From Pontederia crassipes (lineage: Eukaryota > Streptophyta > Magnoliopsida > Commelinales > Pontederiaceae): a DNA stretch of 64,000 bases. The notes beneath the pieces were generated by a model that was not told the DNA's origin, did no database searches, and was given only the letters and a program-made list of their open reading frames with translations. The position numbers and the translations under genes were made by a program. Numbering within the stretch: position 1 is the stretch's first letter; every line of letters starts with the position of its first letter. Below, piece by piece: positions 6,130 through 63,248 of this stretch. The stretch lies in the NCBI GenBank assembly GCA_030549335.1, contig CM060198.1, positions 47,705,353 through 47,769,352 on the forward strand, given 5' to 3'.

Positions 6130-8042
6130 TGTAACGACCCCAAATCGATCAACATCATGTGGCGAGGATCTCTCCGAAGACGCTGCGAAAACATAATAAG
6201 TATAGACAATAATTTACTAAAACTCCACAAAAACGATAACAAATCAGTAATCAAAATAACAAGAAAACATAGGGTATCAAAATGACGGAAGTCTCAAAGT
6301 GTTACAAAATCTCCATCATAATCATAATATCTGTGTTACATCATAGCTCATAATGTGGAAATAAAGATAAAAATAATTATGCCCTCTGTCAGTTCATGTG
6401 CTTTAACATCATTCGAGCTGGTCGCGACACACGGTCTCAACACCATCACTGACCTGGCCCTGTAGAAATCAAACACAGGAAATGAGGTCCTCCCGTAAAC
6501 TATACAGCCTAGTGGGGATACATAAAGTACTCAATGCATAACAATAAATAGCAATAGTCAGAATCAGTAATCATTGATAACAAAATCAAATAGTGAGCAT
6601 AAGATCATTCGATTAGAGATATCAATGGATAGAAGAGATCATGGATCATATAATCATGAGAGGTTACCATAATCATGCAGGATTCATAATTATGATTCAC
6701 TTATCATCATCATTCTCATATCACTTGTAAATATTCTTTGTGCTTGTATCTTTCACTTAGCTTAGGTAACTTTGGATGTCTTTAACTTGTGGGGTTTTTA
6801 CGTCGAGCAAACAATACAGCCTTATGCAGCTAATGGGTGATTAAGTCATAGTTAAGGGAGCAATCCTTCACTTGTAAGCACTTAGCATGGACTGGCCACC
6901 CTCCCTTTATTTCTTTACTTTTCTTGCTTTAATCTCTTTATCAAATCATAACTCTTTCATTCAATAAGGGGATTAGAAAATGCACAGATCAATGACAAGA
7001 CAATTGATATGGTCACAACAATTCAATCAGTAGGAATATGCATAACACAATCATAGAAAGAATCTAGATTAAATCAGCAACCAATATGCATTCTATCAAG
7101 TTTCGGTCGATCGGTCCTCACTGATCGGTCGATCGATTTCTAGACACCGGTCGACCGATATCTCTGGATCGGTCGACCGATTGATCTTAATGCAATACAA
7201 TGGCTCTCGGTCTGCAAGTTCTGAGCATCGGTCGATCGATATCTCGGAATCGATCGACCGATAGTGCTTAGTCTGAAAAAGAAGCTTCGGTCGGAATGAA
7301 TGATCGGTCGACCGGTCTCTGTCGATCGATCGACCGATTCTCATATCACTGGTCGACCGATATTTTGAATCGGTCGACCGGTAGTAGTGAAAATAGAATC
7401 AGACATAATGCGATTTTCAGCGATTTTCAATCCAGAAATGAAATCAATGCTTACAAACAATCATCTAAGCATGAAAGACTAATACAGAACACATCCCTAG
7501 TCATAAGCAATCACAAAACATGAATCAAACATAAGAACACAACCAATCATTCTTTTTTTCACATCCTTTCAATAGTCAAGAACACATTACAAGATAAGAA
7601 CCCTAATTCTACCATATTGCTAATTAAGTTATGCAGTGGGATTTCGGATTCACCCACCTCCTTCTGGAGTGATTCTTGCTTGAAGTCTTTCCGATCACCG
7701 AGAACCACCCTCCCATTGTCGTTCTCCACCTAAGAAGCATTCCAATGGGGAGAAGAAGTGAGGGATTGACATAGAGATCAAGGGATGTAGAAATGGAGAT
7801 GAACCTTAAAGACAACCTTACTGAAACATCCATTTCTCTTGCTAGATTAGAGTGTGCTTTGGGAGGAAGAGAGAGAAGTGAGGGAGAGGAAATGAGTGGA
7901 TAAGAGAGGGCTTTATAGGTTGGAATTAGGGCCTAATGTGTTAATGGGCTCAATTATGGGCTAGGTTAATTGGCTTATTACTACTTGATTTTTATATTCA
8001 TTTATTTATTTATTTTATTCTTTTTTTTAACCGGGTATTACA
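6130..8042 (-). repeat. 3' LTR of gypsy element 1
   Basis: This 1913-bp LTR is the downstream copy of the LTR at 12923-14853. It starts TGTAACGACC and ends GGGTATTACA on the plus strand. The G-box palindrome near its 3' terminus has decayed (CATGTGGCG near 6159). The palindrome array is at 7099-7391. Confidence 0.93.
7099..7391. repeat. Array of GGTCGACC palindromes in the 3' LTR
   Basis: About ten variants of the palindrome ATCGGTCGACCGAT lie in under 300 bases, spaced roughly 15-60 bases apart and often paired. Spacers are unique rather than repeated, so this is not a simple tandem satellite. The other LTR of the element holds the same array with point changes. Confidence 0.85.
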
Positions 8043-8062
8043 TCATTATCCCCTTAAAAAAA
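8043..8062 (-). promoter_or_regulatory. Polypurine tract of gypsy element 1
   Basis: Directly upstream of the 3' LTR on the coding strand the sequence reads TTTAAGGGGATAATGA. It is the expected plus-strand priming site, although it is less purine-pure than in active relatives. Confidence 0.7.
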
Positions 8063-8069
8063 TTCGTTC

Positions 8070-9690
8070 TCAAATTTTGCATTAAATAGAGATCTTACCG
8101 AATAGATGCGGGAACTCCTGGCGCATCTCTAACTCGAGTTCCTATGTGGTCTCATCACCATGATGGAAACGCCAGGCTACTCTGACCATAGGCACATTCA
8201 TATTCTTCTAACATTGTATCTTCCGTTCCACTATATGCGTCGGGTACTCCGTGAAGGTCAAATCCGCAGCTAAATTTGGCTCTTCGATCTGTAAGACATT
8301 AACAGCATCATGCTTGTACTTCTTGAGCATGAAAACGTGAAACACATTATGCACTCGCCCATATGAAGGTGGCAAGGCTAGCCTGCATGCTGCTTCATCT
8401 ACTAACTCGAGTACCTCAAAGGTCCCACATAACGAGGGTTCAGCTTCCCTTCTTTACTGAATCTCATAACTCTCTTCATAGGAGACACCTTCAGCAAAAC
8501 CTGATCACCAGCCTGAAAGATCTACCAATGTCTACCCTTGTCAGCATAACTCTTCTGTCAGCCCTGAGCTGTCTTCATCATCTGCTTGATCAGTTCCACT
8601 TTCTCAGCATACTCTATTGTCTCCTTCACTTCCTTCTTGCTCATGATCTTCTCTTCACCTACTTCACCCCAATGAGCGGGTGAACACCAAGGTCTGCCAT
8701 ATAAAACCTCAAAGGGCACCCTGTCGATGCTGGAGTGGTAACTGTTATTATAAGCAAATTCAATTAGATGAATGTGCTCATCCCAGTTGCCTTGCCAATC
8801 TAGTACACAAGCTCGCAGCATGTCCTCTAATGTCTGAATAGTCCTCTCAGATTGCTCATCGGTCTGAGGGTGAAAAGCAGTGCTGAAACTCAGTATTGTA
8901 CCAAATGCTTCATGCATGCTCTTCCAGAATCTAGCAGTGAAACTGGGATCTCGATCAGAAACAATCGAGGCTGGGATGTCGTGTAGTCTAATCACCTTTC
9001 AAACATATAAGTCCAATAAACTCTCTACCGATTGCTTCCACCGGATAGGGATGAAGTGTGCTGCCTTCGTGAATCTGTCTACCACCACTCATACAGCATC
9101 ATGACCCTTCTTGGACCTGGGCAAGTTGGATACAAAATTCATAGTAATATTATCCCACTTCCACCGTGGAATATCTAAAGGCTTCAATTTCTCATATGCC
9201 TCTGATGCGCAATCTTCATCTGCTGACACACAAGACATCTAGATACATACTCAGATATCTTCCTCTTCATGTCAAGTCACCAATAGCTACACTGTACATC
9301 ATTGTACATCTCAGTGCTTCCGGGATGGATGGCAAACTCAGACTTATGGCACTCATCCATTACCTCCCGTCTGATGGTAGCATCTGTGGGAACCCATAAC
9401 CTGTCCTTGTACCGAATTTCTCCATCTATTGATATTTGGAAATTCTTCGGTTCATTCTGACATCTCTTCAGCACCTTCTGGTACTCCGGGTCCTCTTTTT
9501 GAGCAGCTATGATTCTGTCAATCATACTAGGTCTCATCTGATGCATCATCCATTTCGCTCCATTATTGTCAAGTCTGGAGCACCACTGATCTAACTCCTG
9601 TAACATCTCGTACTCCCGTACCCTGATGTAAGCTATTGAACTTTCCCATTTTTTGCTCAACGCATCCGCCACTGAATTTGCTTTATCAGG
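8070..9690 (-). pseudogene. Integrase and chromodomain of gypsy element 1 (broken)
   Basis: The HHCC zinc-binding region is visible around 9340-9230 (HPGSTEMY, then CLVCQQ). The catalytic core has lost frame in its first part, but retains SIVSDRDPSF near 8960 and the glutamate segment SERTIQTLEDML near 8860. The C-terminal chromodomain at about 8180-8070 contains VAWRFHHGDETT and EMRQEFPHLFGK. In living relatives it targets insertion to modified histones. Stops interrupt the core (near 9060-9240) and the chromodomain. Confidence 0.86.
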
Positions 9691-12755: not shown

Positions 12756-12903
12756 CTTTATCCTTTAATCATAAAAGAACAATACATTAAAATCAATACA
12801 ATACAGTCCTCTTTTGATGGAGAGTGTGGCGACAGCTCAGTGATAGCACATGAACTTCTTTTATACCATACTATACAATAAGACATCAAAAGAGTCCGAA
12901 CAG

Positions 12904-12917
12904 CGACTCTGATACCA
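12904..12917 (-). promoter_or_regulatory. Primer-binding site, initiator tRNA-Met type
   Basis: On the minus strand the sequence TGGTATCAGAGT follows the 5' LTR after a short spacer. It matches the 12-base complement of plant initiator methionine tRNA (TGGTATCAGAGC) except at the last base. This fixes the 5' end and direction of the element. Confidence 0.88.
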
Positions 12918-12922
12918 ATAAA

Positions 12923-14853
12923 TGTAACGCCCCTAAATCGACCAACGCCACGTGGCGATGATCTCTCCGAAGGCACTACGAAAATATAATAACTATAGAC
13001 AACAATTTACTAAAACTCCACAAAAACGATAACAAATCGGCAATAAAAATAACAAGGAAACATAGGGTATCAAAATGGCGAAAGTCTCAAAGTGTTACAA
13101 AATCTTCACGATAGTCATAATATCTGAGTTATATCAAAGCTCATAATGCGAAAATAAAGATAAAGATAACTAGGCCCTCTGTCAGTTCATGTGTTTTAAC
13201 ATCGCTAGAGCTGGTCGCGGCACACGATCTCAACACCATAACTGACTTAGCCCTGTGGAAATCAAATATAGGGGAGGAGGTCCCCCTATAAGCTATACAG
13301 TCTAGTGGGGATCCATAAAGTGCTAAATGCATAACAATAAATAGCAATAGTCAGAATCAGTAATCATTGATAACAAAATCAAGTAGTGAGCATAAGATCA
13401 TTCGATTAGAGATATCAATAGATAGAAGAGATCATGGATCATATAATCATGAGAGGTTACCATAATCATGCAGGATTCATAATCATGATTCACTTATCAT
13501 CATCATTCTCATATCACTTGTACATATTCTTTGTGCTTGTATCTTTCACTTAGCTTAGGTGACTTTGGATGTCTTTAACTTTTGGGGGTTTTACGCCAAG
13601 CAAATAATATAACCTTGTGCAGCTAATGGATGATCAAGTCATGGCTAAGGGAGCGACCCTTCACTTGTAAGCACTTAGCATGGGCTGGCCACCCTCCCTT
13701 TATCTCTTTACTTTTCTTGCTTTAATCTCTTTATCAAATCATAACTCTTTCATTCGATAAGGGGATTAGATCAATGGACAAATCAATGATAAGACAATTG
13801 ATATGGTCACACAACAATTCAATCAGTAGGGATATGCATAACACAATCATAGAAAGAATCTAGATTAAATCAGCAACCAATATGCATTCTGTCAAGTTTC
13901 GATCGACCGGTCCTCACTGATCGATCGACCGATTTTCGGGCATCGATCGACCGATATCTCTGGATCGGTCGACTGGTTGGTCTTAATGCAATACAATGGC
14001 TCTCGGTATGCAAGTTCTGAGCATCTGTCGACCGATATCTCTTGATCGATTGACCGATAGTGCTTAGTCTGAAAAAGAAGCTTCGGTCAGAAGGAATGAT
14101 CGGTCGATCGGTCTCTATCGATCGGTCGACTGATTCTCATATCACAGGGCGACCGATTTGAATTGGTTAATTGGTCGTAGTGAAAACAGAATCAGACAGA
14201 ATGTGATTTTCAACGATTTTCAATTTAGAAATGAAATCAATGCATACAAACAATCATCTAAGCATGGAGGACTAATACAGAACACATCCCTAGTCATAAG
14301 CAATCACAAAACATGAATCAAACATAAGAACACAACCAATCATTCTTTTTTCCATATTCTTTCAATAGTCAAGAACGCATTGCAAGATAAGAACCATAAT
14401 TCTACCCTATTGCTAATTAAGTTATGCAGGGGGATTTCGAATTCACCCACCTCCTTCTGGAGTGATTCTTGCTTGAAGCCTTTTCGATCACCGAGAATCA
14501 CCCTCCCCTTGTCGTTCTCCACCTAAGAAGCATTTCAATGGGGGAGAAGAAGTGAGGGGTTGACATAGAGATAAATGGATGTAGAAATGGAGTTGAACCT
14601 TGAAGACAACCTTGCTGAAACACCCATTTCTTTTGCTGGATTAGAGTGTGCTTTGAGAGGAAAAGAGAGAAGTGAGGGAGAGGAAATGAGTGGATAAGAG
14701 AGGACTTTTGGGTGTAAATGCTTTTATAAGTTGGAATTAGGGCCTAATGTATTAATGGGCTCAATTATGGGCTAGGTTAATTAACTTTTTACTACTTGAT
14801 GTTTATATTCATTTATTTTATTTATTTTATTTTTTTTAAAACCGGGTATTACA
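12923..14853 (-). repeat. 5' LTR of gypsy element 1
   Basis: This 1931-bp LTR is upstream in the element's own orientation. It aligns along its whole length with 6130-8042, differing by scattered substitutions and small indels, so the insertion is not recent. A palindrome GCCACGTGGC containing a G-box lies at 12947-12956, about 25 bases from the LTR's 3' terminus. The segment 13898-14184 carries the palindrome array described separately. Confidence 0.93.
13898..14184. repeat. Array of GGTCGACC palindromes in the 5' LTR
   Basis: This is the counterpart of 7099-7391, with the same order and spacing. Several copies have lost symmetry through point changes, for example near 14150-14175, as expected after independent decay of the two LTRs. 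Confidence 0.83.
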
Positions 14854-18115: not shown

Positions 18116-20523
18116 TGTAACGCCTCTCTGTTTAAAAAAAAAAGAGGCAAAAAGGAAACGGCCGAGCCTCTCCCTCTTCCTCTTCAATGCATAGGCCAAC
18201 CATTCCTCTCTCCTCTTCTGCCGACTGTTCACTGGAAGGAGGAGGCCAAGGGACAACACATTCCCTTAAAACCCCTCTCCCCCATTCCCTCTCACGTTTT
18301 CTCCATTTCGATCTCTCACTCTCTGTTTCTCCTCGGGCGCACACGAGCAGCAGCGACACGCAGAGGTGTTCCGAGCGCTCTAGCAGGACCTCTCGACACG
18401 GACGACGGCGAGCAGCGGCCAGAGAACAAATCACCGTATGGACGAACCACAGATTCGTAGGCTTTAAGGTGTGATTTCGAGATTTATCTCATAGGTTAAG
18501 TTGCTGGACGATTACGCATGCTTAGGGCCGAATCTGAAATAGAATTCATGACTAGGAGACGAAGTCGACAAATTAAAAAATGCTTGATCTTTCATTCCTG
18601 CAAACCACTTGAAATTGTTTGTGTTATATACGTAGATTTTGAATTACCTAAACCGTTACATGTGTAGATCGTTTTCCTTATCGTTTAAATCATCATATAA
18701 TGCTTTAGATATGCTCACAAATCCGTAATATTGATGCATGATCACTTTGATCGTTGAAAAGAATGAAACGATTGTAAATCGTAAACTTACGTAGTTTTTT
18801 GTGAATAAAGAACTCGGCCCAGGTTACCCTCAACCCGGCCCGGATCATACCATCTCGGATCGAGTTTCCTTCAACTCTGCTCGAATCCGCCATTAACGAT
18901 CGATCGGTGCTCGGATCGCACCAGTGACCCGGCCCGAGCTCTACCTGACCCGACCCGGGTATCGATCGGAGAAGACGATCGGGCGGATCGACCTTTTCGA
19001 CCCGATCGCGTACTCAACTCGGCCCGGGTATAACCCTAACCCGGCCCGGGTTTTCACTCGGATTTTTCGAGACTGATTCCATCAGAAACTCGACCCGTGT
19101 TCACCTATACTCGGTCCGGGTTCTGACCAACAGAACGTAAACTCTATGATTTACGAATCTCCGATTACGGAATTGATATCTGATCTTTATAGAAAATTAA
19201 TTGTGCTCAACAGAACCATGTTTACCTCCTATCGAATTGAACGAAAATAACGAAACGCCAAACTTAATTATGACATCTTTGAAATGATAAATGGTCATCC
19301 GCTCCCTCTATGGACGATCATTAAAAAGAACATATGATGGACGGTCGTTTGACTTTCGGCATCCGTCACGTGGACAGGGGAATATAACCATAATCGAACC
19401 CTCTGATTTTAAGCTTCTGTCCACTTGATTAGTTAAAGAAAAGAAAGAACTCAAAGAATGATTCAGAGCTTCGCTCCATACGGCCTTGACCAATTTACGA
19501 ATTGGAAGATGGGTCCACATGATTCAGAGTTGTGCTCCGTACGACCTTGATCGACCTTTGGATTGAAAGAAAAATCCATTATGATGAGGGAAGTTAAGCA
19601 AGCCCTAAGCAAGGCACTTTCATACGGATTTTCATTTGTCCTATCTTGATGGGAGTTTTCTCCCTTATGGATGTTTTCTCATGGCACGAGGTCATCCCAG
19701 CTCGACGGGACTGGCCATGACATTGATCACCTACTGGCCCACAATAGTTTAGATAGTAGCACTATGAGTGCAAGCAATGGTATTTCCCTAAAAGAATGAA
19801 GAGCTCTTCCAATGGAATGGAAATGAAATCAAAAGAAAAGAAAAGAAAGAATAAAAAGAGAAAATGAACAAATGAATGAACGAAAGAAAAGAAGGAAAGG
19901 ACAATGAAAAGAGAGATATGAACCGTATTATACTCTCTATTATATGACTCACCTTCATATTCCATTATATTATGCTTATTCTGACAAAACTGATCTATGA
20001 TTTATACGAACTCACATTTAGTTTTATGCTAACGGTTGAGCTTGCTCCCCTGTGTGATCCCCGCAGGTACATGATGATTGATCATAACGTGATGGTGTGT
20101 GCGTGGCGATCTTGCTCTGGGTGGCACGTGCATATGGTTATGGTCATGTCTAGTATGAGTCGTGTGGTTGTCCGTTATATTAAGTGGTATATCTACTTGG
20201 ATGGATCTTATCATGTTATGGTCGACCGTCGTCATTTTTATGTTTAGTACTCATTTTTATCTTTACTACTTCAGACATGAGACTGTGGGATGTTATCTTT
20301 TGCTTCCGCACTATGTTTCTTATAACGACAGTTTGACATATTTTAACCCTTTTTGCTTTCGCATTCTCTCCTTATTATTGTATTATTTTATTTGACAAGT
20401 CTTCCGCTTACGTGTCACTTTCCTTGACCATTTGGGTTAACAAAAGAGTCAAATAGAAGAAGAATAGGGTAGCACACGAGAGGAGATCGTGCCACGTGGC
20501 GGGTTAAATTTCGGGGCGCTACA
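18116..20523 (+). repeat. 5' LTR of gypsy element 2
   Basis: This is the 2408-bp upstream LTR. It carries an array of ACCCGGCCCGGGT-like motifs around 18815-19130, a G-box palindrome GCCACGTGGC at 20491-20500 about 23 bases from its end, and A/G-rich simple repeats near 19810-19920. Several apparent 60-100 residue frames inside it are not genes. Confidence 0.93.
18815..19130. repeat. Array of ACCCGGCCCGGGT motifs in the 5' LTR
   Basis: About eight variants of the 13-base near-palindrome ACCCGGCCCGGGT occur in 315 bases, with unrelated spacers. The right LTR has the corresponding array at about 26020-26340. These GC-rich motifs contrast with the AT-rich surroundings. Confidence 0.78.
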
Positions 20524-20527
20524 TTTA

Positions 20528-20539
20528 TGGTATCAGAGT
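20528..20539 (+). promoter_or_regulatory. Primer-binding site of gypsy element 2
   Basis: TGGTATCAGAGT begins four bases after the 5' LTR. It is the initiator methionine tRNA type, with the same last-base difference as in gypsy element 1. Confidence 0.9.
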
Positions 20540-20707
20540 CTAACGCTAAGACTCTCTTGACGTCCTAGAAATATAGTTGAGTCTAAGTTATGGTCCATAT
20601 CCACCCACTAGAGCTATCGCCACACCCATCCGTCGCAGAGCAAGGCAAGGATCTTTATGCTTTTAAAGTTGTGATTATTTATTGAAATGAAATTGTCATG
20701 TTTATAG

Positions 20708-23730: not shown

Positions 23731-25310
23731 TACGAAGGTACGAATTGATCGAGGAACTCAACTACTGGAATCCACGAATTGTAGGACACAGTGATTTTAA
23801 TGATGCACCAACTACAACCAAGCCTCATCAGCAGAATCGTCATGGCACAGATGGTTGACGTCGAATATACGAAGATGTTCAAGAGATGCCAAGGCGAACC
23901 AGAAGACTTTAAAGTTGACAACGATAGAGGAATTAGATATCGGAACCGCCTCTGGGTTTCGAATGATACTACAGTCCAGCGAGAGGTGCTCGAGAAGGCC
24001 ACAAGTCGGAGTTTGCAATTCATCCGGGCAGCACCAAGATGTATAGAGACATCAAACGTAGTTTCTGATGGCATGACATGATAAGAGAGATTGCCAACTA
24101 CATCTCCAAATGTTTAGTATGCCAACAGGTGAAGGCCGAACACCAGCGATCTTATGGACTCATGAAGCCATTAGGAGTACTAGAATAGAAGTGGGAGAAC
24201 ATCACGATGGACTTTGTCTCTGGTCTTACCAAAACACAGAAGGGTCACGATGCCATTTGGGTCATGGTCAACAGGTTGACAAAGACGGCCCATTTCTTTC
24301 CGATCAAATGGAAGCAGTCAGTGGAAAGTCTATTAGAAGTGTATGTACGAGAGATTATCCAACTTCATGGTATTCTAGTCTCGATCGTGTCAGACCTTGA
24401 TCCCCGGTTCATATCGAGATTTTGGAAGAGTCTGCAGAAGGCTTTCGGCACTAAGTTGAGCTATAGTACAGCCTTTCACCCTCAGACTGATGGACAGTCA
24501 GAGATGACGACTTGGATGCTAGAGGACATGCTCCGAGCATGTGCTTTGGATTGGTTATGGTAGCTAGGACAAGCATCTACCGTTGATCGAGTTCTCATAT
24601 AATAATAGTTTCCACTCCAGCATCGGCATGGCGTCTTTTGAGGCGATGTATGGAAGACCTTGCCGTTCGCTCGCGCATTGGAACGAGGTCGGTGAGCGGG
24701 TAGCAATGAGCGAGGAGCTAGCAGTCCGAGCTCAGGAGTATGCGGATACGGTGGACATCATTCGGAAGAGGATGAAAGCCGCACAGTCACGATAGAAGAG
24801 CTACGCCGACAAGAAGCGTCGAGAGCAGATTTTCAAGGCCGGAAACCAGGTGTTATTGAAGGTGTCTTCGATGAAGGGAGTGATGAGATTCAGCAAATGA
24901 GGGAAGCTCAGCCCTCGATTTGTTGGTCCCTTCGAGGTCCTTGAATTAGTCGACGATGCAGCTTGCAGATTGGCCCTACCTCCTTCCTATGAAAAAGTTC
25001 ACAACATTTTTCACGTATCCATGCTCCGAAAGTACAAGCACGACGACGTCAATGTTGCGAGAATCGAAGAGCCGAATCTAAAAGAGGACCTGACCTATGT
25101 GGAGTACCCAACGAAGATCATGGACCTGAAGGTCCAATACAGGAAGGGCAAGGAAGTTTCGCTAGCCAAAGTCGCATGGAAGTACCACCACGGAAAGGAT
25201 GCGACATGGGAACTAGAATCCGAGATGCGCAAGGAATTTTCACACTTATTCGGTAAGCTCTATTCTTTACAAGATTCGAGGACGAATCCTTTTTTTATGA
25301 GAATTATATT
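23730..25310 (+). pseudogene. Integrase and chromodomain of gypsy element 2 (broken)
   Basis: The integrase zinc-binding part is frameshifted around 23990-24120. The core is open at 24207-24563 with MDFVSGLTKTQKGHDAIWVM, then SIVSDLDPRF, and HPQTDGQSE before the glutamate region. The segment 24583-24795 (SYNNSFHSSIGMASFEAMYG) continues it. The C-terminal open frame 24970-25314 contains a well-preserved chromodomain (KVAWKYHHGKDATWELESEM, about 25165-25230). No clean polypurine tract is left before the 3' LTR. Confidence 0.86.
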
Positions 25311-27699
25311 GTAATGCCTCTCTATTTAAAAAAAAGGAGGAAGGGAGGCGAAGAGGAAACGGCCGAGCCTCTCCCTCCTCCCCTTTAATGCATAGGCCAA
25401 CCATTCCTCTCCCCTCTTCAATGGCCGATTGTTCACTGGAAGGAGGCCAAGGGACAACACATTCCCTTAAAACCCCTCTCCCCCATTCCCTCTCACGTTT
25501 TCTCCTCTTCGATCTCTCACTCTCTGCTTCTCCTCCGACGCACACAAGCAGCAGCGACAGGCAGAGGTGTTCCGAGCGCTCCAGCAGGACCTTCCGACGC
25601 GGACGACGGCGAGCAGCAACCAGCGATCTAAGCACGAATCATAGCACGAACGAACCACAGATTCGTAGGCTTTAAGGTGTGATTTCGAGATCTATCTCAC
25701 AGGTTAAGTTACTGGACGATTAAGCATGCTTAGGGCTGAATCCGAAATAGAATTCATGACTAGGAGACGAAGTCGACAAATTTAGAAATGCTTGATCTTT
25801 CATTCCTTGCAAACCACTTGAAATTGTTTATGTGTTATAGACGTAGATTTCGAATTACCTAAACCGTTACATGTGTAGATCGTTTTCCTTATCATTTAAA
25901 TCATCATATAATGCTTTAGATATGCTCACAAATCCGTAATATTGATGCATGATAACTTTGAATGTTGAAAAGAATGAAACGATTGTAAATCGTAAACTTA
26001 CGCAGTTTTCTACGAATAAAGAACTTGGCCCGGGTTACCCTCAACTGCTCCGGATCAGACCACCCCGGATCGAGTTTCCTCCAACTCAGCTCGGATCCGC
26101 CATGAACGATCGATCAGAGCTCTAATCGCACCAGTGACCCGGCCCAGGCTCTGCCTGACCCGACCCGAGTATCGATCGGAGAAGATGATCGGGGGATCGA
26201 CCTTTCCGACCCGATCGCGTACTCAACTCGGCCCGGGTATAACCCTTACCCGGCCCGAGTTTTCACTCGAATTTTCCGAGACTGATTCCATTCGAAACTC
26301 GACCCGTGTTCACCTGTACTCGATTCGGGTTCTGACCAATAGAACGTAAACTCTATGATTTACGAATCCCCATTTACGGAATTGATATCTGATCTTTATA
26401 GAAAGTTAATTGTGTTCAACAGAACTATGTTTACCTCCTATCGAACTGAACAGAAAGAACGAAATGCCAAACTTAATTATGACATCTTTGAAATGATAAA
26501 TGGTCATCCGCTCCCTCTATGGACGACCATTAAAAAGAACATATGACGGACGGTCGTTTGACTTCCGGCGTCCGGTACGTGGACATGGGAATCTAACCGT
26601 AATCGAACCCTCTGATTTTAAGCTTCTCTCCACTTGATTAGTTAAAGAAAAGAAAGAACTCAAAGAATGATTTGGAGCTTCGCTCCATACAGCTTTGACC
26701 AATCTAAGAATTGGAAGATGGGTCCACATGATTCAGAGTTGTGCTCCGTACGACCTTGATCGACCTTTGGATTGAAAGAAAGATCCATTATGACGAGGGA
26801 AGTTAAGCGAGCTCTAATCAAGGCACTTCCACATGGATTTTTATTTCTTATCTAGATGTGAGTTCTCTCCCTTATGGATGTTTCCTCATGACATGAGGTC
26901 ATCCCAGCTCGACGGGGCTGGCCGTGACATTGATCACCCACTGGTCCACAATAGTTTAGATAGTAGCACTACGAGTGCAGACAATAGTATTTCCCTAAAA
27001 GAATGAAGAACTCTTCCAATGAAATGGAATGGAATGGAATGAAAATGAAATAAAAGAAATGAAATGAAATGAAATGAAAAGAGAAAATGAACAAATGAAT
27101 GAACGAAAGAAAAGAAGGAAAGGACAATGAAAAGAGAGATGAACCGTATTATACTCTCTACCATATGACTCGCCTTCATATTCCATTATACTATGCTTAT
27201 TCTGACAGAACTGATCTATGATTTATATGAACTCACATTTAGCTTTATGCTAACGGTTGAGCTTGCTCTTCTGTGTGATCCCCACAGGTACATGATGGTT
27301 GTTCATAACGTGATATGGTTATGGTCATGTCTAGTATGAGTCGTGTGTTTGTCAATTATATTAAGTGGTATACTTACTTGGATGGATCTTATCATGTTAT
27401 GGTCGACCGTCGTCGTTTTTATGTTTAGTACTCATACTTTTATCTTTACTACTTCAGACATGAGTCTATGGGATGTTATCTTCCGTACTATGTTTCTTAT
27501 AAAGACAGTTTGACATATTTTAACCCTTTTTGCTTCCGCATTCTCACCTTACTATTGTATTATTTTATTTTACAAGTCTTCCGCTTACTGTCACTTTCTT
27601 TGACCATTTGGGTCAACAAAGGAGTCAAATAGAAGAAGAATATGGTAGCGCACGAGAGGAGATCGCGCCACGTGGTGTGTCGAATTTCGGGGCGCTACA
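25311..27699 (+). repeat. 3' LTR of gypsy element 2
   Basis: This is the 2389-bp downstream LTR. It matches 18116-20523 apart from scattered changes. A GAAAT pentamer run has expanded at about 27035-27085 compared with the left copy. The G-box is GCCACGTGGT at 27667-27676. Because it lies just upstream of the PWWP ORF and in the same direction, it could serve as a promoter for it. Confidence 0.93.
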
Positions 27700-54295: not shown

Positions 54296-55259
54296 TGTAG
54301 GATCGAAAGCACCAAGAGGGGGGGGGGGGGGTGAATTGGTGAAATTAAAATTTTCAAAAATTCACCTTCGGAGAAATCTGATAAAAACGATCACAATCAA
54401 ATAAGGATAATGCATAGAAGAAGAATAAAGAACAAATACAAGGAGCCACGATATGTTGATGAGGTTCAGCCCAAATACTTTGGCCTACGTCCCCGCTCTG
54501 CCTTCTCGACCTCGAGACCGCCGAAGATTCACTATGTTTCTCTTTTTTTTGTAGGGAGAGAACTATCCTCTTTAAACAATCATGCCTTCTTCTCTGCTCA
54601 AGAGGCTAGGCACACCTCTATACAAGGAGCTCTCAATCTCACTAAATTCAGAAAGGAAATGTTCCATCTAACTCTTTTCTTTTACAAAAACTTTTCTCAC
54701 ACTCAAGACTAAGAAAAGAAAAGGATAACTCTATGCTCAAAAACTTGAGAGGAGCTCTAGGATGTTCTCTCTTGCTTGGATGATTTTTCTTCAGGTTTTG
54801 ACACTCCTTTTATAGGCTCCTAGGGGTGAGATTTCGTTCAAAAAGTCTCCCCCAAATTTCTCCTCAAATTCTAGCCGTTACTGTTCATTTGATTGTTTCA
54901 TTTATGCGCTTTGGCGGTGTTCGGTCGACCGATCCTTCGACCGATATAATGACCGGTAATGTCTCGACGTCGACCGGTCTAAATTGCTGTCGACCGGTCT
55001 GTCGACCGGTATAGTCTCGATGTCAATAGGCATCTTATCATATTTCCTTCTACCGAATATCAGTCGACCGGTGCTTATGGTCGGTCGACCGGTCGGTCGA
55101 CCGATTGTGCTGAAAACTTTTCTTCCAACTTTAAATTTGGCGATTTTTTCGGCGAATCTGTTCATATCAATTCTACACCTGCATTATCACTACTTGAGCA
55201 TAAATTAGTAACTTTTATGTCCATTTTAATTTGTTATCATCAAAACATAGGATTTAACA
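54296..55259 (-). repeat. 3' LTR of the copia element
   Basis: This 964-bp LTR has the palindrome array at 54919-55112. About 30 bases at its end (near 55070-55105), holding two extra palindromes, are absent from the other LTR. Confidence 0.92.
54919..55112. repeat. GGTCGACC palindrome array in the copia 3' LTR
   Basis: About eight variants such as GTCGACCGGT and CGGTCGACCGAT occur in under 200 bases. The matching array of the other LTR (62868-63092) differs in copy number and in point changes. Confidence 0.82.
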
Positions 55260-55273
55260 ATCCCCCCTTTTTA
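55260..55273 (-). promoter_or_regulatory. Polypurine tract of the copia element
   Basis: TAAAAAGGGGGGAT on the minus strand abuts the 3' LTR and is the expected plus-strand primer. Confidence 0.85.
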
Positions 55274-55847: not shown

Positions 55848-57048
55848 TTATGTCATATGATGGTCTATGGCGGCCACCTGCTGTGAAAGAGCCGTGAAGT
55901 CGTAGGTGCCATGGAAGTCTGAAGCACCATGCTTAGAAGTCCCAATATGCTCAGTGGGCGCCGATGGTGGAGGGAAGCTAGGGCCAGCCTCCTGAATGTC
56001 CATCGGTGCTGGCTCATCATTTGTGGCATCATCTCTATCCTCAGAATCTGGTGCCTCCTGCTCACTAAACCTAAAACCCATCCGGTGTAAAGTCCCAGAA
56101 CCAATGACGTCGGTGGGACGAGGTTGAATGTACTCCTCGTCAGCAGGGATGTCGACACCAAAGTGGAGTAAGATCTTCGTGATCCAAGCACCAAAATATA
56201 AGTGGTGCCGTCCACGAGCAGCAGAAGAGATCTTTTGAAAAGTGTAGTCCATGTGATAGAACACATAATGACCGAAATGTAGAAAGGAGGCATCACGGAT
56301 ATAGAGACAGTGAAGAAAGAAGAAATCAAAGTGAGTGACCTCTGTATAGTGCCCTGCTCGAGGAGTGATCATTCGGCTAAGAAGATGATGTGCCATTTTC
56401 ATAAGTGGATGAAGATGGCAATAGGTTGTTTCGACAGTATATTGGACGTCTTGTCCAGCAAAAATGGTCTGAATATCATCTGAGATGGGAAGATAGTCGG
56501 AAGGCCAACCATGAGTGACAAATGAATAAAGACCATGTAATGGGTACGCAACCCAAAAAAATGCGACAAAGATGGTCTGGATCAAAATGAATGGGCATGC
56601 CAAGGACATAGGTAATAATGGACTCTCTAGTGATTGTCATGTTCGCATAAAAATGACGAACAAGACGAGGGTACACACGCTCTGTGAGGGAGAGAAGTGG
56701 CATCCAACCAATGATTGCGAACATCTCTTGAACATCTGGAATGTTCAGAGCGTCTTAATCAATGGTATAGGCACGCCGGACTTCACGAGAGGCGTACAAG
56801 GTGTCGAACCTGACAGAGACGTCCCTAGTGACAAAGAGATGACTATCAAAATCAGCAGACTCGGGAGAGGATGGTTGACGAGTACGTCCATGGGATCGTC
56901 CTCGTCCACGGCCTCGTCCATGTTGGACAGGCGTGGGTTCGGGTTCTGGTTCAGGTGGGAGGACATGAATGGTACCACCGGAACCCGGGAAGCGATGAGG
57001 ACGCTGAAAGACCATCCGAACATGAGAATGTCCATTGTCGTCGGCCAT
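55848..57048 (-). pseudogene. Extra ORF of the copia element (ORF3)
   Basis: The ATG at 57048 opens MADDNGHSHVRMVF, followed by a proline-glutamate and arginine-glycine-rich linker (GRGRGRGRSHGRTR). A TAA interrupts at about 56755. The next part (YPRLVRHFYANMTITRES) and, after a frameshift near 56540, a helix-rich region to HFDFFFLHCLYIRD match the kind of domain annotated as putative plant transposon protein. The tail is acidic. The full reading would be about 400 residues. Its function is unknown. A CT-rich leader lies directly upstream (see 57060-57370). Confidence 0.6.
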
Positions 57049-57059
57049 GGGATTCAACA

Positions 57060-57370
57060 ATGGTGGTGGTCTGAAGTGAACGAAAGGTTGGAGCAGAAGG
57101 TCAGCGGCGGGAGAGGGAGAGTTGGCCGGAGAAGAGAGGGAGAGACGGCAGTTGACTGGAGAGAGAGATCGGCCGAGAGAGATAGAGAAGACTTGGCGGG
57201 ACGGTCGGCCGACGGTGACAGGGCGGCTGGCTGGAGAGAGAGACTAGCGAGGGAGAGAGAGAGAAGACTGGCGGGACGGTCAGCCGGCGGTGGCAGGGCG
57301 GCTGGCCGGAGAGAGAAAGGAGAAAAGAGTCAAAGATAGAGAGAAAGAGAGTCGAAGGTAAAGAGGGAGA
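57060..57370 (-). promoter_or_regulatory. CT-rich leader upstream of copia ORF3
   Basis: On the minus strand this 300-base stretch is a run of CTCTCTC and CCGGCCA-like sequence, like a plant mRNA leader. It contains a tandem duplication of about 75 bp (57187-57261 and 57262-57320). It suggests that ORF3 has its own transcript start rather than depending on the LTR. No TATA box is confirmed. Confidence 0.4.
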
Positions 57371-57915
57371 GAGAGTTTGACCTAGGCGGCGGCCGGTCGC
57401 TGGAGTCCGGCGATCGTGGTGTTGCCGGAGGAGGGGAGGTTGTCGGAAGAGGATCGGTCACCGAGGGTAAAATCCGAAAGTTAGGTCGACTGAATAGAGC
57501 GGTCGATTTCTATAGCTCGCGATTTTGGCATATACCGATCGACCGGACATGCCCCGCGGTCGACCGGACACTTCATTTCCAAACATATCATATAGCGGTT
57601 GATTCGATGTCAGCCGGTCGCAGTATATACCGATCGACCAATTTTTTCATATCGGTCGACCGATCATTTGTATGCGTATTGAACCTTCTATTGTATTCGA
57701 CCGGTCCTTTCAGGCGGTCGACCGGTCCTGCAAGTAGATCGACCGATCCCTGTATTTTTCAGATTTTGAACCATTTAAAAACATTAAAATTCATAAAAAT
57801 CATATTCCAAAAAGGATCATACGAATGTAAGTGTTGTGCAACACTTTTAATGTTCAATTCATGTCAAAAGTGATTTTGTATAACCAAGTCACTTTTACTT
57901 CGAACTGATATGCAA
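57370..57915. repeat. Internal GGTCGACC palindrome cluster of the copia element
   Basis: Between ORF3 and the pol end at 57916, about ten variants of CGGTCGACCG lie at 57483-57750. This is the third array of the same palindrome in the element, after those in the two LTRs. The rest of the interval has no coding sequence. Confidence 0.78.
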
Positions 57916-59594
57916 TCAAGAATTAATCATTCCTAATTCCCTTCTAAGCATGCAGAACCATTCTTCACTCAAGGGTTTTGTAAATATGTCTGCAGCAATT
58001 AAGTGTGATTCTTTGTGGGCGGATTGAAACCTAACACACAAACACACAATAAACATTATGTATGGCCTAGATGTCGTTAAATAGAGCAAACTACCAATCA
58101 TACCTCTGTACCTTTTTTATCAATGGACTTGCCTTTTTCGTCTTTATCCAATTTTGTAGTAGTGCTCATAGGTGTTGTGCTTGGCTTGCAGTCGTTCATC
58201 CCGAATCTTTTAAGCAGCTCCCTTGTATATTTTCCTTGATTGAGAAAGATGCCTTCCTTGGATTGTTTTACTTGTAGGCCTAGAAAGTAAGTGAGCTCTC
58301 CTACAAGACTCATTTCAAATTCTTGTTGCATAAGAGTTTCAAACTCTTTGCATAGGCATTCATTAGTAGCACCATAAACAATATCATCAACATAAATGTG
58401 AACTATTAAAATATCATTTTTAAAATGTTTTAAGAACAATGTGGTGTCAACTTTCCCTTTTTGAAAATCATTTTCAATTAAAAATGAACTCAATCTTTCA
58501 TACCAAGCTCGAGGGGCTTATTTCAATTCATAAAGAGCTTTTGAGAGTTTGAAAACATGATGGGGAAAATTTGGATTTTCAAAACCTTGAGGTTGTTCGA
58601 CATAAACTTCCTCATTTATAAAACCATTCAAGAAAGTCGATTTAACATCCATTTGAAAAAGTTTAAAACCTTTATTGCATGAAAAAGCCAAAAGCATTCG
58701 AATTATCTCAAGTCTAGCAACAGGAGCAAAAGTTTCATCAAAATCAATCCCTTCAATTTGTGAGTAACCCTTGGAGACTAATCTAGCCTTGTTCCTCACA
58801 ATGACACCATTTTCATCTAACTTGTTTCGAAATACCCATTTGGTTCCAATGATAGGATGGTTCTTGGATCTTTCTACAAGTTTCCACACTTGATTTCTTT
58901 CAAAGTTATTTAATTCCTCATGCATTGCATTTATCCAATTTGGATATTCAAGTGCTTCATCTATATTGTTGGGCTCATAATTTGCAAGAAAATCTGAAAA
59001 TGCACATAGATTTTTTAAAGAATTTCTAGTTTTTATGCCTTCATTTAACTTACCTATAACTTGATCAAGTGGGTGTGATGAGGCATGTCTCCAATTTCTT
59101 GGGATGATTTGATTCTCTTCTCTTTGAGGTACTTTCATTTCTTCCACCTTTGGAGTGTTATCTTTTGCTTCTTCTATGTCTACAACTTCAAGTTCTCTTT
59201 GTACTTCAACTATTTCTTCATCATCATCCTGTGCTTGTTTGCTCAAAGAATCATTAGTTTCATTGAATTTAACATTAATAGACTCTTCAACAACTAATGT
59301 TCTTTTGTTGTATACTCTATAGGCTTTACTTGTATTAGAATAACCAAGAAAAATACCATCATCACATTTATCGTCAAATTTGCCTAGTTTATTTTTAATG
59401 TTCAAGATATAACATTTACATCCAAAAACTTTAAAATAGGAGATGTTTGGTTTCTTACCAAATAGCATTTCAAAACAAGTTTTCTTTTTAAGAGGTCTAA
59501 GTAGAATTCTATTGAGAACATAGCAAGATGTGTTTACGGCTTCCGTCCAAAAATATTTTGGTAATTTGCTTTCGTTTAAGATTGTTCTAGCCAT
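57916..59594 (-). pseudogene. copia reverse transcriptase with RNase H mostly deleted
   Basis: 358 codons from 59594 hold the integrase C-terminus and the first half of reverse transcriptase (WINAMHEELNNFERNQVWKL, KWVFRNKLDENG, MDVKSTFLNGFINEEVYVEQ). A stop at 58518 splits it from the second half, with the catalytic YVDDIVYGA (near 58400-58375). The sequence then passes from KESHLI directly into ADIFTKPLSEE near 57990. In complete relatives about 150 or more residues of RNase H lie between these. The end is at 57916. Confidence 0.88.
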
Positions 59595-59599
59595 TTCTT

Positions 59600-61049
59600 G
59601 TATAGTTTTATTCTTTCTTTCTACTACTCCATTTTGTTGATGTGTTCTAGGAGTGGAAAAATTGTGAGTAATTCTATTTTCTTCGCAAAATAATTCAAAT
59701 TTATGATTTTCAAATTCTCCTCCATGATCACTTCTAATTTTTGAAATCCTTTGTTCAAATTCGTTTTACACTCTTTTTGCAAATTTGGAAAACATGTTTA
59801 GCGTCTTATCTTTACTAGCGAGAAAAATTGTCCAAGTGAAACGAGAGAAATCATCAACAATTACAAATACATATCTTTTTCCTCCTAAACTAGTCACATC
59901 AATAGGCCCAAACAAATCAAGATGTAAAAGTTCTAAGGCCCTATGTGTACTAATAACTCCTTTTAATTTAAAAGAACTTTTGGTTTGTTTACCTTTTAAA
60001 CATGAATCACAAACATTGTTTTTCTCAAATTTGATCTTAGGTAAGCCTCTAACCAATTCATGATTTGAGAGTTTATTTAGCAATTTATAATTTGCATGTC
60101 CTAATCTCCTATGCCACAAGTTTATGTCATCATGCATGACACTAAGACATTTTTCATTTTTCAAATTATCAAAATCAATTTCGTATACATTATTGTACAT
60201 AAATCATATGTGTAAAACTTTGTTATTTTCATCTAGTATCAAACATTTGTCCTTTTCAAATTTAACCAAATAATTTTTATCACAAAGTTGACTTATGCTA
60301 ATTAGATTATGTTTTAGATTTTCAACAAGCTAAACATTTTCTAAATACACTTTATCATTCTTACCAATATTACCTATATCAATTACTCTTCCTTTGCTAT
60401 TGTCTCCAAAAGTGACTTTTCTTCCATTTTTCTTTTCCAAATTTATGAAATTTGAGGCATCGCCGGTCATATGTCTTGAGCATCCACTATCCAAATACCA
60501 TTTACCTTCATTGTACATAGAAGCTTCCTACAAGAAAGAAGTTAGGAGTTTCATGTTTTTATTACCCAAACTCGTTTGGGTCCATCTTGGTTAGCCATGG
60601 TCCTTTTCGGGACCAAAATTTTCTTCATTCCTTTACTTATTCCTTTCCTAATTCTGCAATCATAAGAATAATGCCCTTCATATCCACAATGAAAATAAAC
60701 AATTTGTGATCTTGTGTAATCATGCGATGCTTTAACAAATAAGATTCTTTTGTCATTCTTCTTTTCAAAAGAGTGAAACCAAGTCCCTTTTTGTTTGAAA
60801 AAATTCTAGATCCACTAAGCATGGCATCTAACATTTTACTTCCATTTGAGAATTTTTCAAGTTCAAGTTTCAATTGATTAATTTCTTTGTTCAAACATGC
60901 ACTTTCTACAATTTGTCTTTTACATATTAATTTTAGTGCACTATTTTCCGTTTTCAATTCTTCAATTGAGAGTTCTAAGCTGGAGTTTTTTTATTCAATA
61001 TATCACACTTTTCACATCCTTTAACATTTTTATTTTGCAAATTTTTAAA
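59600..61049 (-). pseudogene. copia protease and integrase
   Basis: After a coiled-coil segment (about 60957-60800) and a second zinc knuckle (near 60700-60660) comes the protease active site WYLDSGCSRHMTGD (near 60500-60460). The pre-integrase zinc segment has LWHRRLGHANYKLL and CDSCLKGKQTKSSF (near 60110-59980). The core has HLDLFGPIDV (near 59917), RSDHGGEFE (near 59735) and NGVVERKNKT with the catalytic glutamate (near 59635). A stop near 59766 and frameshifts near 60780 break it. Confidence 0.85.
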
Positions 61050-62198
61050 CTATATTTTTATCTCATCGTATTTCTTTTTTAGGCATCCATATTTATTGAT
61101 TAGACCTCTAAACTCCTTATGCACATTGAAAGATTCACTATCAATATAGTTAGATGAGTTAGATGATACCTCATGGCTATTAGTCATTAGACATATGTAG
61201 GCTTCCTCGTCATCACTGGAAGAGGTGTTTGAGTCATTCTCTTCATCTTCACTTTCATCCCAAGTGATTTGGAGAGTCTTTTTCTTCCTTTTTAAGCTTT
61301 CTCCATCTTTCTCCTTTTTGATCAAATTTGGACATTCATTTTTGTAGTGTCTAATCTTTTTGCATTCAAAGCAAGTTATTTGGCTTTTGCTTAATGATCT
61401 TATCTTGGAATAGACTTTCTTCTTCTTAGCGAATCTGAGATATTTATCAAGCTTCTTTGCATATAGAGAAAGCTTCTTTTCATCAAGATCCTCATCTTCT
61501 TCACTTGTATCTTCCTCATCTTTGTTTGCTTTCAATACAAGTGTTTTTCTTTTTGGAGTATTTGCTTCTTCATCCTCCATGATTCCGATCTCATAGGTCA
61601 ATAGTGAACCTATAAGATCATCAAAGTCCAACTTATTTAAATTATTTTCTTCAATCACCGTCCTCTTTGTATGCCACTTGGAGGAGAGAGACCTGAGAAA
61701 CTTTTTCACTTTTTGAGGATTAGTCTTTGGCTCGCCCAAAGAGGCTAAGCCATTTATAATATCATTGAAACGAACAACCATCTCATTAATAGATTCATTT
61801 TTAAGCATTTTAAAAGAATCATATCGATGATTTAAAATATTTAATCTAGACTCCTTAACTTTATCCGTTCCTTCATGAGTAATAATGAGTTTTTTCCAAA
61901 TATCATTAGCACTTTCACAACTGGAAACTCGATTAAACTCTGTTGGATCCAAAGCACAATAAAAAATATTTTTAGCTTTCCAATCTAATTTTACCGAAAG
62001 TCTTTCTCCTTCGGTATATTCAAAAGGTTTTTTCTTACTTAAATCAAAACCATTTTGAATAATATCCCACATATCAATATCAATAGAACAAACATTGGCT
62101 TGCATCCTAATTTTCTAATATGCAAAATTCGATGCATTAAATAGTGGAGGACGATTAATAGATTGACCTTCGCAAAAATCGGAACCACTTGATGCCAT
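61050..62198 (-). pseudogene. copia gag
   Basis: The ATG at 62198 opens MASSGSDFCEGQSINRPPLF. A TAG follows in place of a tryptophan codon (near 62117). The 351-codon frame from 62105 carries the UBN2/gag domain (CALDPTEFNRVSSCESANDI, HEGTDKVKESRLNIL). It then has an acidic linker, the zinc knuckle CFECKKIRHYKNEC (near 61365-61325) with all four ligands, and a serine-aspartate-rich tail. The remainder of the polyprotein continues downstream past further stops. Confidence 0.86.
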
Positions 62199-62237
62199 AG
62201 TTCTAAAGATATTTTTAAATCTTAAAGCTATAGCAAC

Positions 62238-62252
62238 TTGGCTCAGATATCA
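62238..62252 (-). promoter_or_regulatory. Primer-binding site of the copia element
   Basis: On the minus strand TGATATCTGAGCCAAG follows the 5' LTR. It matches the initiator methionine site with two differences in the first 12 bases, so it has probably decayed. Confidence 0.65.
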
Positions 62253-62254
62253 AT

Positions 62255-63248
62255 TGTAGGATCGAAAGCACCAAGAGGGGGGGGGGGGGTGAATTGGTGA
62301 AATTAATTTTTTCAAAAATTCACCTTCGGAGAAATCCGATAAAAATGATCACAATCAAATAAGAATAATGCGTAGAAGAAGAATAAAGAACAAACACAAG
62401 GAGCCACGATATGTTGACGAGGTTCGGCCCAAATACTTTGGCCTACGTTCTCGCTCCGACTTCTCGACCTCGAGATCGCCGGAGATTCACTATCTTTCTC
62501 TTTTCTTGTAGGGAGAGAACAACCCTCTTTAAACAATCACGCCTTCTTCTCTACTCAAGAGGCTAGGCACACCTATATACAAGGAGCTCTCAATCTCACT
62601 AAATTCAGAAAGAAAATATTCCCTCTAAATCTTTTCTTTTACAAAAACGTTTCTCACACTCAAGACTAAGAAAAGAAAAGAGAAGAAATTTATAACTCTA
62701 TGCTAAAAAACTTGAGAGGAGCTCTAGGATGTTCTCTCTTGCTTGGATGATTTTTCTTCAAGCCTTGACACTCCTTTTATAGGATCCTAGGGGTGAGATT
62801 TCGTTCAAAAAATCTCCCCCAAATTTCTCCTCAAAATTCTAGCCATTACTGTTCATTTGACTGATGGGCCGATCGACCGCTGGGATGGACCGGTCGACCG
62901 GTCTATGTGACCGTTGTCTCATTTTTGCGCTTTGGCGGTGTCCGGTCGACCGGTCCTTTGATCGATATAACGACCGGTAATGTCTCGACGTCGATCGATC
63001 TAAATTGTTGTCTACTGGTCTGTCGATCGGTATAGTCTCGACGTCGACCGGCATCTTGTCGTCTTTCCTTCTATCGAATATCAGATCGACCAGTCGTGCT
63101 GAAAACTTTTCTTCCAACTTTAAATTTGGCGATTTCTTTGGCGAATCTGTTCGTATCAATTCTACACCTGCATTATCACTACTTGAGCATAGATTAGTAA
63201 CTTTTATGTCCATTTTAATTTGTTATCATCAAAACATAGGATTCAACA
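62255..63248 (-). repeat. 5' LTR of the copia element
   Basis: This 994-bp LTR contains a run of about 12 G near 62277 close to its 3' terminus in element orientation. It also contains a GGTCGACC palindrome array at 62868-63092. About 55 bases near 62860-62918 are absent from the other LTR. Confidence 0.92.
62868..63092. repeat. GGTCGACC palindrome array in the copia 5' LTR
   Basis: About nine variants, of which the first three (62870-62905) lie in the segment missing from the other LTR. Some are asymmetric through point changes. Confidence 0.82.

Follow-up and report, generated by a model that had tools for sequence, protein, structure and literature searches.

Within a 64-kb stretch of Pontederia crassipes DNA (contig CM060198.1 of assembly GCA_030549335.1, positions 47,705,353 to 47,769,352; hereafter the window), four families of long terminal repeats (LTRs) carry arrays of short CG-rich palindromes, and a single decamer, CGGTCGACCG, is common to retrotransposons of the copia and gypsy superfamilies in one genome, which is a new observation. 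Two different motifs obey the same rule, namely that neighbouring sites form pairs 20–23 bp apart. With moderate confidence, we favour the explanation that the arrays are shared cis-regulatory docking platforms for a sequence-specific DNA-binding protein, most likely encoded by the host, which would bind in pairs, one dimer to each palindrome.

The window contains three LTR elements, two of gypsy and one of copia type, and one solo LTR. The initial annotation of this DNA had placed these elements and LTR pairs at the positions given below and had reported palindrome arrays in all four LTR families; both statements held, the latter in counts of the motifs against shuffled sequences. Its figure of 8–13 repeats per LTR fits the best-kept LTRs of gypsy 1 and gypsy 2 and the solo LTR but not LTR-B of the copia element, and by restricting the arrays to LTRs it missed one that lies within the copia element, outside any LTR. 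It also overlooked the 20–23 bp pairing and the fact that arrays of the decamer had already been published for Sireviruses. The features are as follows.

6130–14853, minus strand: gypsy 1, with gypsy-type gag, protease and RVT_1
6130..8042, minus strand: gypsy 1 LTR-A, of a 90.5% LTR pair; AGTTT flanks the element at both outer ends
7102..7382: array of gypsy 1 LTR-A, 10 CGGTCGACCG sites at up to one mismatch; 7 of 9 neighbours are 21–23 bp apart
7912..7917, minus strand: TATAAA of gypsy 1 LTR-A at LTR position 126, with a second at 47; both positions are repeated in LTR-B
12923..14853, minus strand: gypsy 1 LTR-B, the 5′ LTR; open pieces of gag and reverse transcriptase (RT) are on the minus strand
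13898..14157: array of gypsy 1 LTR-B, 9 sites used; 6 of 8 neighbours are 22–23 bp apart
18116–27699, plus strand: gypsy 2, a probable chromovirus, with gypsy-type gag, protease and RVT_1; target-site duplication (TSD) GTCAT
18116..20523, plus strand: gypsy 2 LTR-A, of an LTR pair, at the TSD GTCAT
18812..19121: array of gypsy 2 LTR-A, 8 ACCCGGCCCGGGT sites at up to three mismatches; four pairs at 21–22 bp
25310..27699, plus strand: gypsy 2 LTR-B, of the same pair
26023..26330: array of gypsy 2 LTR-B, 7 of 9 listed sites used; three pairs at 21–22 bp
34940..37164, minus strand: solo LTR with TGATG...CATCA ends and the TSD TTCCT on both sides; family unclassified
36195..36924: array of the solo LTR, 12 TTACGGNCCGTAA sites at up to three mismatches
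54296–63248, minus strand: copia element, classed below as a Sirevirus
54296..55259, minus strand: Sirevirus LTR-A, the 3′ LTR; CTTCA at both outer ends of the element, TATAAAAGG in mid-LTR
54920..55105: array of Sirevirus LTR-A, upstream of the TATA box
55848..56636, minus strand: open piece of the third open reading frame (ORF), in the env-like position; its PF20167 match is below the cut-off of that family
57534..57747: internal Sirevirus array, with pol on one side and the third ORF on the other; 7 sites were used, and 21–22 bp separate 4 of 6 neighbours
58518..59765, minus strand: open piece of Sirevirus pol, with the integrase end, SH3 and copia-type RT (RVT_2)
61050..62114, minus strand: Sirevirus gag, Retrotran_gag_2 in an ATG-started ORF
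62255..63248, minus strand: Sirevirus LTR-B, the 5′ LTR; poly-C signal, and a primer-binding site (PBS) junction just inside the LTR
62868..63094: array of Sirevirus LTR-B, 5 sites at up to 4 of 14 mismatches

The motifs are far more frequent than dinucleotide shuffles predict. CGGTCGACCG at up to one mismatch has 33 matches in the window against 0.27 expected, and ACCCGGCCCGGGT at up to two mismatches has 19, both strands counted, against 0.22. TTACGNNNCGTAA at up to one mismatch is weak window-wide (5 against 0.92, with 1 of 100 shuffles reaching 5), and inside the solo LTR TTACGGNCCGTAA gives 7 sites at up to two mismatches against 0.04 and 12 at up to three against 0.43. The solo-LTR motif, initially read as TTACG-NNN-CGTAA, does form an array there but is better written TTACGG-N-CCGTAA. 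The motifs of all four families can be expressed in the common form CGG-N(1-4)-CCG, with the core CGG-TCGA-CCG in gypsy 1 and the copia element, CGG-C-CCG in gypsy 2 and CGG-N-CCG in the solo LTR. Exact cores number four in LTR-A and none in LTR-B of gypsy 1, five and two in the LTRs of gypsy 2, three and two in those of the Sirevirus with three more in its internal array, and two in the solo LTR. Many sites are thus imperfect, and the excess is one of a repeated motif, not of perfect inverted repeats: of eight LTRs or arrays, only three (the two LTRs of the Sirevirus, and the solo LTR) have more perfect inverted repeats with 5-bp arms than every one of 100 shuffles. Scanning for such perfect repeats without a motif was rejected as an array detector, as it separates the arrays poorly because many sites have one half changed. 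Such repeats are also frequent in the interior of gypsy 1 (8043–12922), at 30 against at most 20 in 20 shuffles.

The 1.13-Gb genome contains 6587 CGGTCGACCG pairs at distances of 12–42 bp, whereas the reversed palindrome, of matching composition, yields 3. For the gypsy 2 motif CCCGGCCCGGG the pair count is 224 (92 on one strand, 132 on the other), with 0 for its control, and the longer pattern TCGGTCGACCGAT-N(4-10)-TCGGTCGACCGA is matched 276 times on one strand and 272 times on the other, its control giving 0. Counts no higher than composition would give, an outcome that the initial annotation had allowed for, are therefore rejected both in the window and genome-wide. In the viral contigs searched, we found no relative of the motif pattern and none of the pol piece.

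Judging from its sequence hallmarks, the copia element is a Sirevirus. First, its domains are Retrotran_gag_2, gag_pre-integrs, rve and RVT_2, with the integrase preceding RT. Second, the junction at its 5′ LTR reads CA/ATTGA-TATCTGAGC, two substitutions away, in this old copy, from the published Sirevirus rule of CA/ATTGG at the LTR end followed by the PBS TATCAGAGC. Third, the polypurine tract has the AT/TG junction; its terminal octamer AAGGGGGG differs from AGGGGGAG at two bases, and one exact AGGGGGAG lies upstream at 55354–55361, extra upstream copies of the tract being a published hallmark. Fourth, the poly-C integrase signal is present near the 3′ end of the LTR, and the TATA box CCTATAAAAGG stands at LTR position 449 in LTR-A and 471 in LTR-B, with the arrays upstream, within positions 158–384. 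The ORF in the env position is placed correctly, with an array 5′ of it, but is in broken pieces without a firm domain. Just outside the element (53076–53573) is an ORF with a weak match to ATHILA ORF-1 (PF03078, E=6e-5).

The palindrome array of Sireviruses, with this exact decamer, has been known since 2010. According to Bousios et al. (2010; PMC2829016), CGGTCGACCG is the repeated motif (RM) of a Vitis Sirevirus; the RM lies in LTRs upstream of the TATA box, extra copies lie upstream of the env-like gene in the nine env-bearing RM elements, 4 of 13 RM Sireviruses have no env-like gene, and the motif was termed Sirevirus-specific, relative to classic copia elements. The copia element of the window agrees in the decamer, in the LTR array before the TATA box and in the cluster before the third ORF. 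It is the other elements that depart from the published picture. Gypsy 1 has the same decamer, and CGG-N-CCG is a form in which the motifs of gypsy 2 and of the solo LTR can be cast; arrays of at least eight CGG–CCG palindromes are found in the best-kept LTRs of gypsy 1 (10, at up to one mismatch), gypsy 2 (8, at up to three) and the solo LTR (12, at up to three). However, with their gypsy-type gag, protease and RVT_1, gypsy 1 and gypsy 2 are not Sireviruses, and the array of gypsy 1 is downstream of its TATA candidates, whereas that of the Sirevirus is upstream. The 20–23 bp pairing was not found in the passages of that paper examined.

Absence of the arrays from most members, which the initial annotation had named as a possible outcome, is rejected for the Sirevirus: all 20 copies picked by a flanking stretch carry 3–8 sites, these being among the best-scoring copies (20 of 40 scored matches of 1745 candidates, leaving aside the window's two, two presumed partner LTRs and the 16 lowest scorers). 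For gypsy 1 it is rejected more weakly, as the loci were found through the motif. Loci L001–L031 were found via an exact site pair, and L032–L040 and L043–L062 are the 29 newly fetched places among the 31 top places of the genome-wide pair list; the other two, already in the set as L001/L002 and L003, are both gypsy-1 LTRs, and the 29 include cases in which both LTRs of a single element are counted. By their site-masked flanks, 15 of the 29 belong to gypsy 1 and 13 to a second gypsy family, which has gypsy-type gag or pol beside four of its five ten-kb loci, and one (L056) stands apart. Two Ty3/gypsy families of this genome thus carry arrays of the decamer that gypsy 1 shares with the Sirevirus. 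L056 resembles the Sirevirus LTR at 72–76% over short stretches, and at its positions 801–890 a Sirevirus-like array apparently breaks off past its third site, where a different LTR-like sequence (TGTAACACACCC) begins. L037 was considered as a second copia lineage with an array and was rejected, its site-masked flanks being those of a gypsy-1-type LTR. Ten loci with the gypsy 2 motif fall by site-masked flanks into four groups, none of which joins the gypsy 2 of the window, and one of them (L072) is near a stretch that resembles the Sirevirus LTR. L068 and L069 were rejected as separate places, because they overlap with 100% identity over 2828 bases; this single place, where Sirevirus pol is present but the array is laid out as in gypsy 2 (67% identity), is read from its sequence as a probable nested insertion. 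We found no report of palindrome arrays in gypsy LTRs in the literature searched, a search that mostly did not extend to subscription papers.

The second regularity is the spacing. In gypsy 1 LTR-A, the seven closely spaced neighbours compare with 1.0 by random placement, and LTR-B behaves alike with six of eight; pair spacing is also in excess in gypsy 2 (4 of 7 neighbours in LTR-A, p=0.0004; 3 of 6 in LTR-B, p=0.003) and in the internal Sirevirus array (p=0.0008). The sites tested were picked from the motif hits: one overlapping weak site per gypsy 1 LTR, two of the nine sites in gypsy 2 LTR-B, six weak ones of 13 around the internal Sirevirus array and solo-LTR hits above three or four mismatches were omitted. 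With hits up to four mismatches, the solo LTR has an excess over random placement of 20–22-bp (p=0.007) and 62–65-bp (p=0.0002) spacings. Genome-wide, 44 of the 50 CGGTCGACCG pairs listed are at 20–23 bp, and 99 of the 100 CCCGGCCCGGG pairs listed, with 55 distinct spacers, are at 20–22 bp; when pairs are grouped by spacer similarity, 25 of 31 groups for CGGTCGACCG (binomial 2e-17) and 9 of 10 for the gypsy 2 motif (9e-8) are at 20–23 bp. In the 20 Sirevirus copies, 24 of the 28 neighbours within 12–42 bp are at 21 bp and 4 at 12 bp, counts that reflect shared ancestry, with 14 distinct spacers. Longer siteless gaps part the short-spaced pairs in the second gypsy family (26–57 nt in L039), so that the unit is the pair and not an even ladder. 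Strict helical phasing of every neighbour was rejected; because the spacings of 45, 52 and 65–69 bp are not all multiples of 10.5, we claim only the pair rule. This pairing was not found in the literature searched, which did not include the 2016 paper on Sirevirus palindromes; that paper could hold part of it.

Might the pairs act in RNA rather than in DNA? Neighbouring palindromes could form a stem of 10–14 bp with a loop of 8–13 nt, and the structured transcripts would feed or decoy small-RNA silencing, as has been proposed for maize Sireviruses. For most arrays the RNA is indeed predicted to be far more stable than shuffles (z of −8.8 for gypsy 1, −4.0 for gypsy 2, −5.8 for Sirevirus LTR-A, −2.8 for the internal Sirevirus array, and −7.3 and −6.6 for the two strands of L039). 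PMC5311732 and PMC10760457 describe maize Sirevirus palindromes as small-RNA hotspots and, through them, the 2016 work appears similar to ours in its palindrome clusters in LTR cis-regions and in strong predicted RNA structure. Moreover, when one site of a pair has changed, the other has often done so too (both in 94 of 294 pairs, odds ratio 2.0, p=0.003), although age alone, or joint use, could explain this. We nevertheless consider the hairpin explanation, the strongest rival to protein binding, unlikely. Loop length would be free over a wide range, yet the spacing among the listed pairs is mostly 20–23 bp; the arms show no base-for-base compensation (Fisher p=0.48 and 0.36), and each arm is itself palindromic, a symmetry that no stem would require. 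For the array of the solo LTR the predicted structure is unremarkable (z −1.3), and the Sirevirus arrays lie upstream of the TATA box.

The sites themselves are conserved. In 20 gypsy 1 loci (those of 59 examined that aligned across the array), identity to the gypsy 1 LTR of the window is 0.878 in sites, 0.687 in spacers and 0.735 in the rest of the LTR, and sites exceed spacers in every one of the 20. In the second gypsy family (9 of 11 given loci, with L039 as reference and its partner L040 left out) the values are 0.884, 0.686 and 0.758, with sites above spacers in 9 of 9. Because the loci were found via an exact site pair, we dropped the best two or three sites per locus, and the conservation of sites over spacers persisted (in gypsy 1, 0.839 and 19 of 20 loci without the three best).

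These comparisons bear on the origin of the arrays. A unit of 21–22 bp might have been expanded by slippage into an array without function, and in line with such tandem duplication, Tandem Repeats Finder gives a 22-bp period in gypsy 1, and L001 and L010 each contain a single extra 22-bp unit. However, neighbouring 7-nt spacers within an array are only 0.24–0.45 identical, against 0.65–0.85 for the sites (a value inflated by the way in which sites are found), and across loci the sites outlast the spacers despite their CG-richness. The same spacing also occurs with different motifs and dozens of spacers, and siteless gaps separate the pairs in the second gypsy family. We therefore regard a mere by-product of duplication as very unlikely.

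The initial annotation had offered two readings of the arrays, binding by a factor or dense symmetric methylation sites. The former is supported by the conservation of the sites and by two motifs obeying the same pairing; the latter is not favoured, and we hold it to be very improbable. CpG density is certainly high (113–141 CpG-bearing columns per kb within arrays against 20–50 outside), as a methylation target or a simple effect of CpG composition would have it. Nevertheless, pairs of the composition-matched palindrome are nearly absent from the genome, the spacing rule would be unexpected, CCG is the sole CHG context (H being A, C or T) within CGGTCGACCG, and the CGs of the sites look protected, not eroded. 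Between the paired LTRs of six elements, CG transitions affect 25 of 314 positions within sites and 102 of 669 outside them (p=0.0015) and are lower in sites in all six pairs, whereas the outer cytosines of CCG change equally often in both (25 of 114 and 37 of 163). A first pass over the whole arrays of three elements had given 24 of 189 against 60 of 286 for CG (p=0.027) and 29 of 79 against 13 of 52 for CCG (p=0.18). Since changes after insertion should be near neutral, the lower CG change hints that array-site CGs are less methylated. Among the sites of L001–L062, the decamer changes most often at the outer C of CCG: G3 has become A in 104 of 636 and C8 has become T in 77 of 636, whereas the six CpG positions average 31, which gives ratios of about 3.4 and 2.5.

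How might a protein read such arrays? A palindrome of 10–14 bp would suit a protein dimer, and two palindromes 20–23 bp apart, or two helical turns, would bring two dimers next to each other on the same side of the helix; repeated pairs would then build a cooperative cluster in the LTR. Transcription factors of the p53 type are multimeric and bind as a dimer of dimers to two palindromic decamers. The likeness lies in the two palindromic decamers, while protein class and kingdom differ, so that this is an analogy only. Several superfamilies would exploit one host protein, which, when bound, would drive transcription from the LTR or license it, and which may keep CG methylation away from the bound stretch. 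We infer a host-encoded protein as the most likely one because a Ty1/copia Sirevirus and two Ty3/gypsy families share the decamer, and the gypsy pieces searched show gag–pol only. Ten of the 29 gypsy 1 and ten of the 35 gypsy 2 open pieces of at least 60 amino acids were searched, and these had gag–pol domains, no Pfam match, or one of two chance-like sub-threshold hits (Meth_synt_1, E=0.043; STI1-HOP_DP, E=0.009). Array position is consistent with a role in transcription in the Sirevirus, where the array is upstream of the TATA box, and in the solo LTR, where it is upstream of the likeliest one, TATAAATAG at position 1257 of the minus strand, from which the orientation of this LTR was inferred; weaker TATA-like words occur inside the array.

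A parallel with the VANC proteins of VANDAL elements had also been drawn in the initial annotation. As an analogy it is fair: according to PMC5735166, VANC targets are short clustered motifs in non-coding transposon DNA with local CG hypomethylation at binding sites, they are family-specific, and a motif also occurs in an unrelated transposable element. VANDALs differ in that they are DNA transposons encoding their own VANC, the motif YAGTATTAY is not palindromic (and that paper makes no mention of palindromes) and the targets grow as tandem repeats. A VANC-like gene was not found here in searches that did not include a VANC profile. The annotation was confirmed and extended as an observation and partly supported as an interpretation.

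Alternatively, a factor encoded by the Sirevirus itself, for example by the third ORF, could bind the arrays with a VANC-like action, and the decamer-bearing gypsy elements would ride on it. An ORF beyond gag–pol is found only in the Sirevirus, which leaves the third ORF as a candidate source of the array-binding protein, and the internal array lies just 5′ of it, as in the nine env-bearing RM Sireviruses (PMC2829016). VANC6 motifs have likewise been seen outside their own family, in an unrelated element, while VANC21 coincides with local CG hypomethylation (PMC5735166), which would fit the CpG protection within the sites. However, 4 of the 13 RM Sireviruses lack an env-like gene (PMC2829016), gypsy 2 has another motif and no extra domain in its searched pieces, and for the piece of the third ORF none of 102 candidates is a relative at E≤1e-3, its sole Pfam match being sub-threshold. 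We consider a Sirevirus-encoded factor quite unlikely.

Several points weigh against the host-protein explanation that we prefer. Both the protein and its binding to the arrays are putative. The gypsy 1 array (LTR positions 661–941) lies downstream of both TATAAA candidates, unlike that of the Sirevirus, and no clear TATA box was seen in the gypsy 2 LTR; with array position so variable, a pure promoter-proximal activator would not be the whole story. Taken alone, neither Sirevirus LTR array of the window has a significant surplus of 20–23 bp spacings (p=0.22 in both), and the same holds for the better sites of the solo LTR (p=0.28 and 0.17). Copies share ancestry, so that locus and pair counts are not independent; the loci used for conservation were found through the motif, which biases conservation upward; and the CpG result comes from six LTR pairs of partly related elements. 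Taken as a whole, each array of the window differs more between paired LTRs than the rest of its LTR does (0.113 against 0.082, 0.103 against 0.071 and 0.130 against 0.055). Finally, symmetric positions within sites do not covary (12 double changes in 636 sites, Fisher p=1). Without half-site compensation, the symmetry argument rests on the form of the motif, and selection on palindromy itself is not proven.

Some neighbouring features deserve mention. That gypsy 2 is probably a Ty3/gypsy chromovirus is suggested by a Chromo match of E=0.0023, which is below the Pfam cut-off (18.2 against 25.1 bits) and adjoins a clear SH3_Tf2-1. A GC-rich ORF (17468–18115) abuts this element, and a 540-amino-acid ORF with a PWWP domain (27812–29434) lies beyond it on the same strand; gypsy 2, with its TSD GTCAT, may have inserted in one host gene. 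At 15668–16152 there is an AT-rich element resembling a miniature inverted-repeat transposable element, with a CpG observed/expected ratio of 1.7–2.0, inverted ends TTGTCAAGATC...GATCTTGACAA and a dense array of GATCGTAAGATCG, short CG palindromes of its own. Tandem 133-bp units occupy 33281–33574 in an AT-rich region, where AACGAC/GTCGTT words continue to about 33660.

What might this mean for the elements and their host? More tentatively than the docking platform itself, we speculate that a spacing code extends across LTR superfamilies: copia and gypsy elements of one genome would have converged on, or captured, CGG-N-CCG pairs at a distance of two helical turns, which would be recognized by one host family of dimeric proteins, different members of which would read CGG-TCGA-CCG, ACCCGG-C-CCGGGT and TTACGG-N-CCGTAA, and occupancy would shield CpGs from methylation in the germline. 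If this is true, the arrays would be anti-silencing platforms powered by the host. The two-turn pairing and the decamer shared by copia and gypsy elements provide a specific and testable handle on the binding protein, and should the CpGs of the arrays prove to be protected in the germline, there would be a way for LTR elements to remain licensable with no anti-silencing gene of their own.

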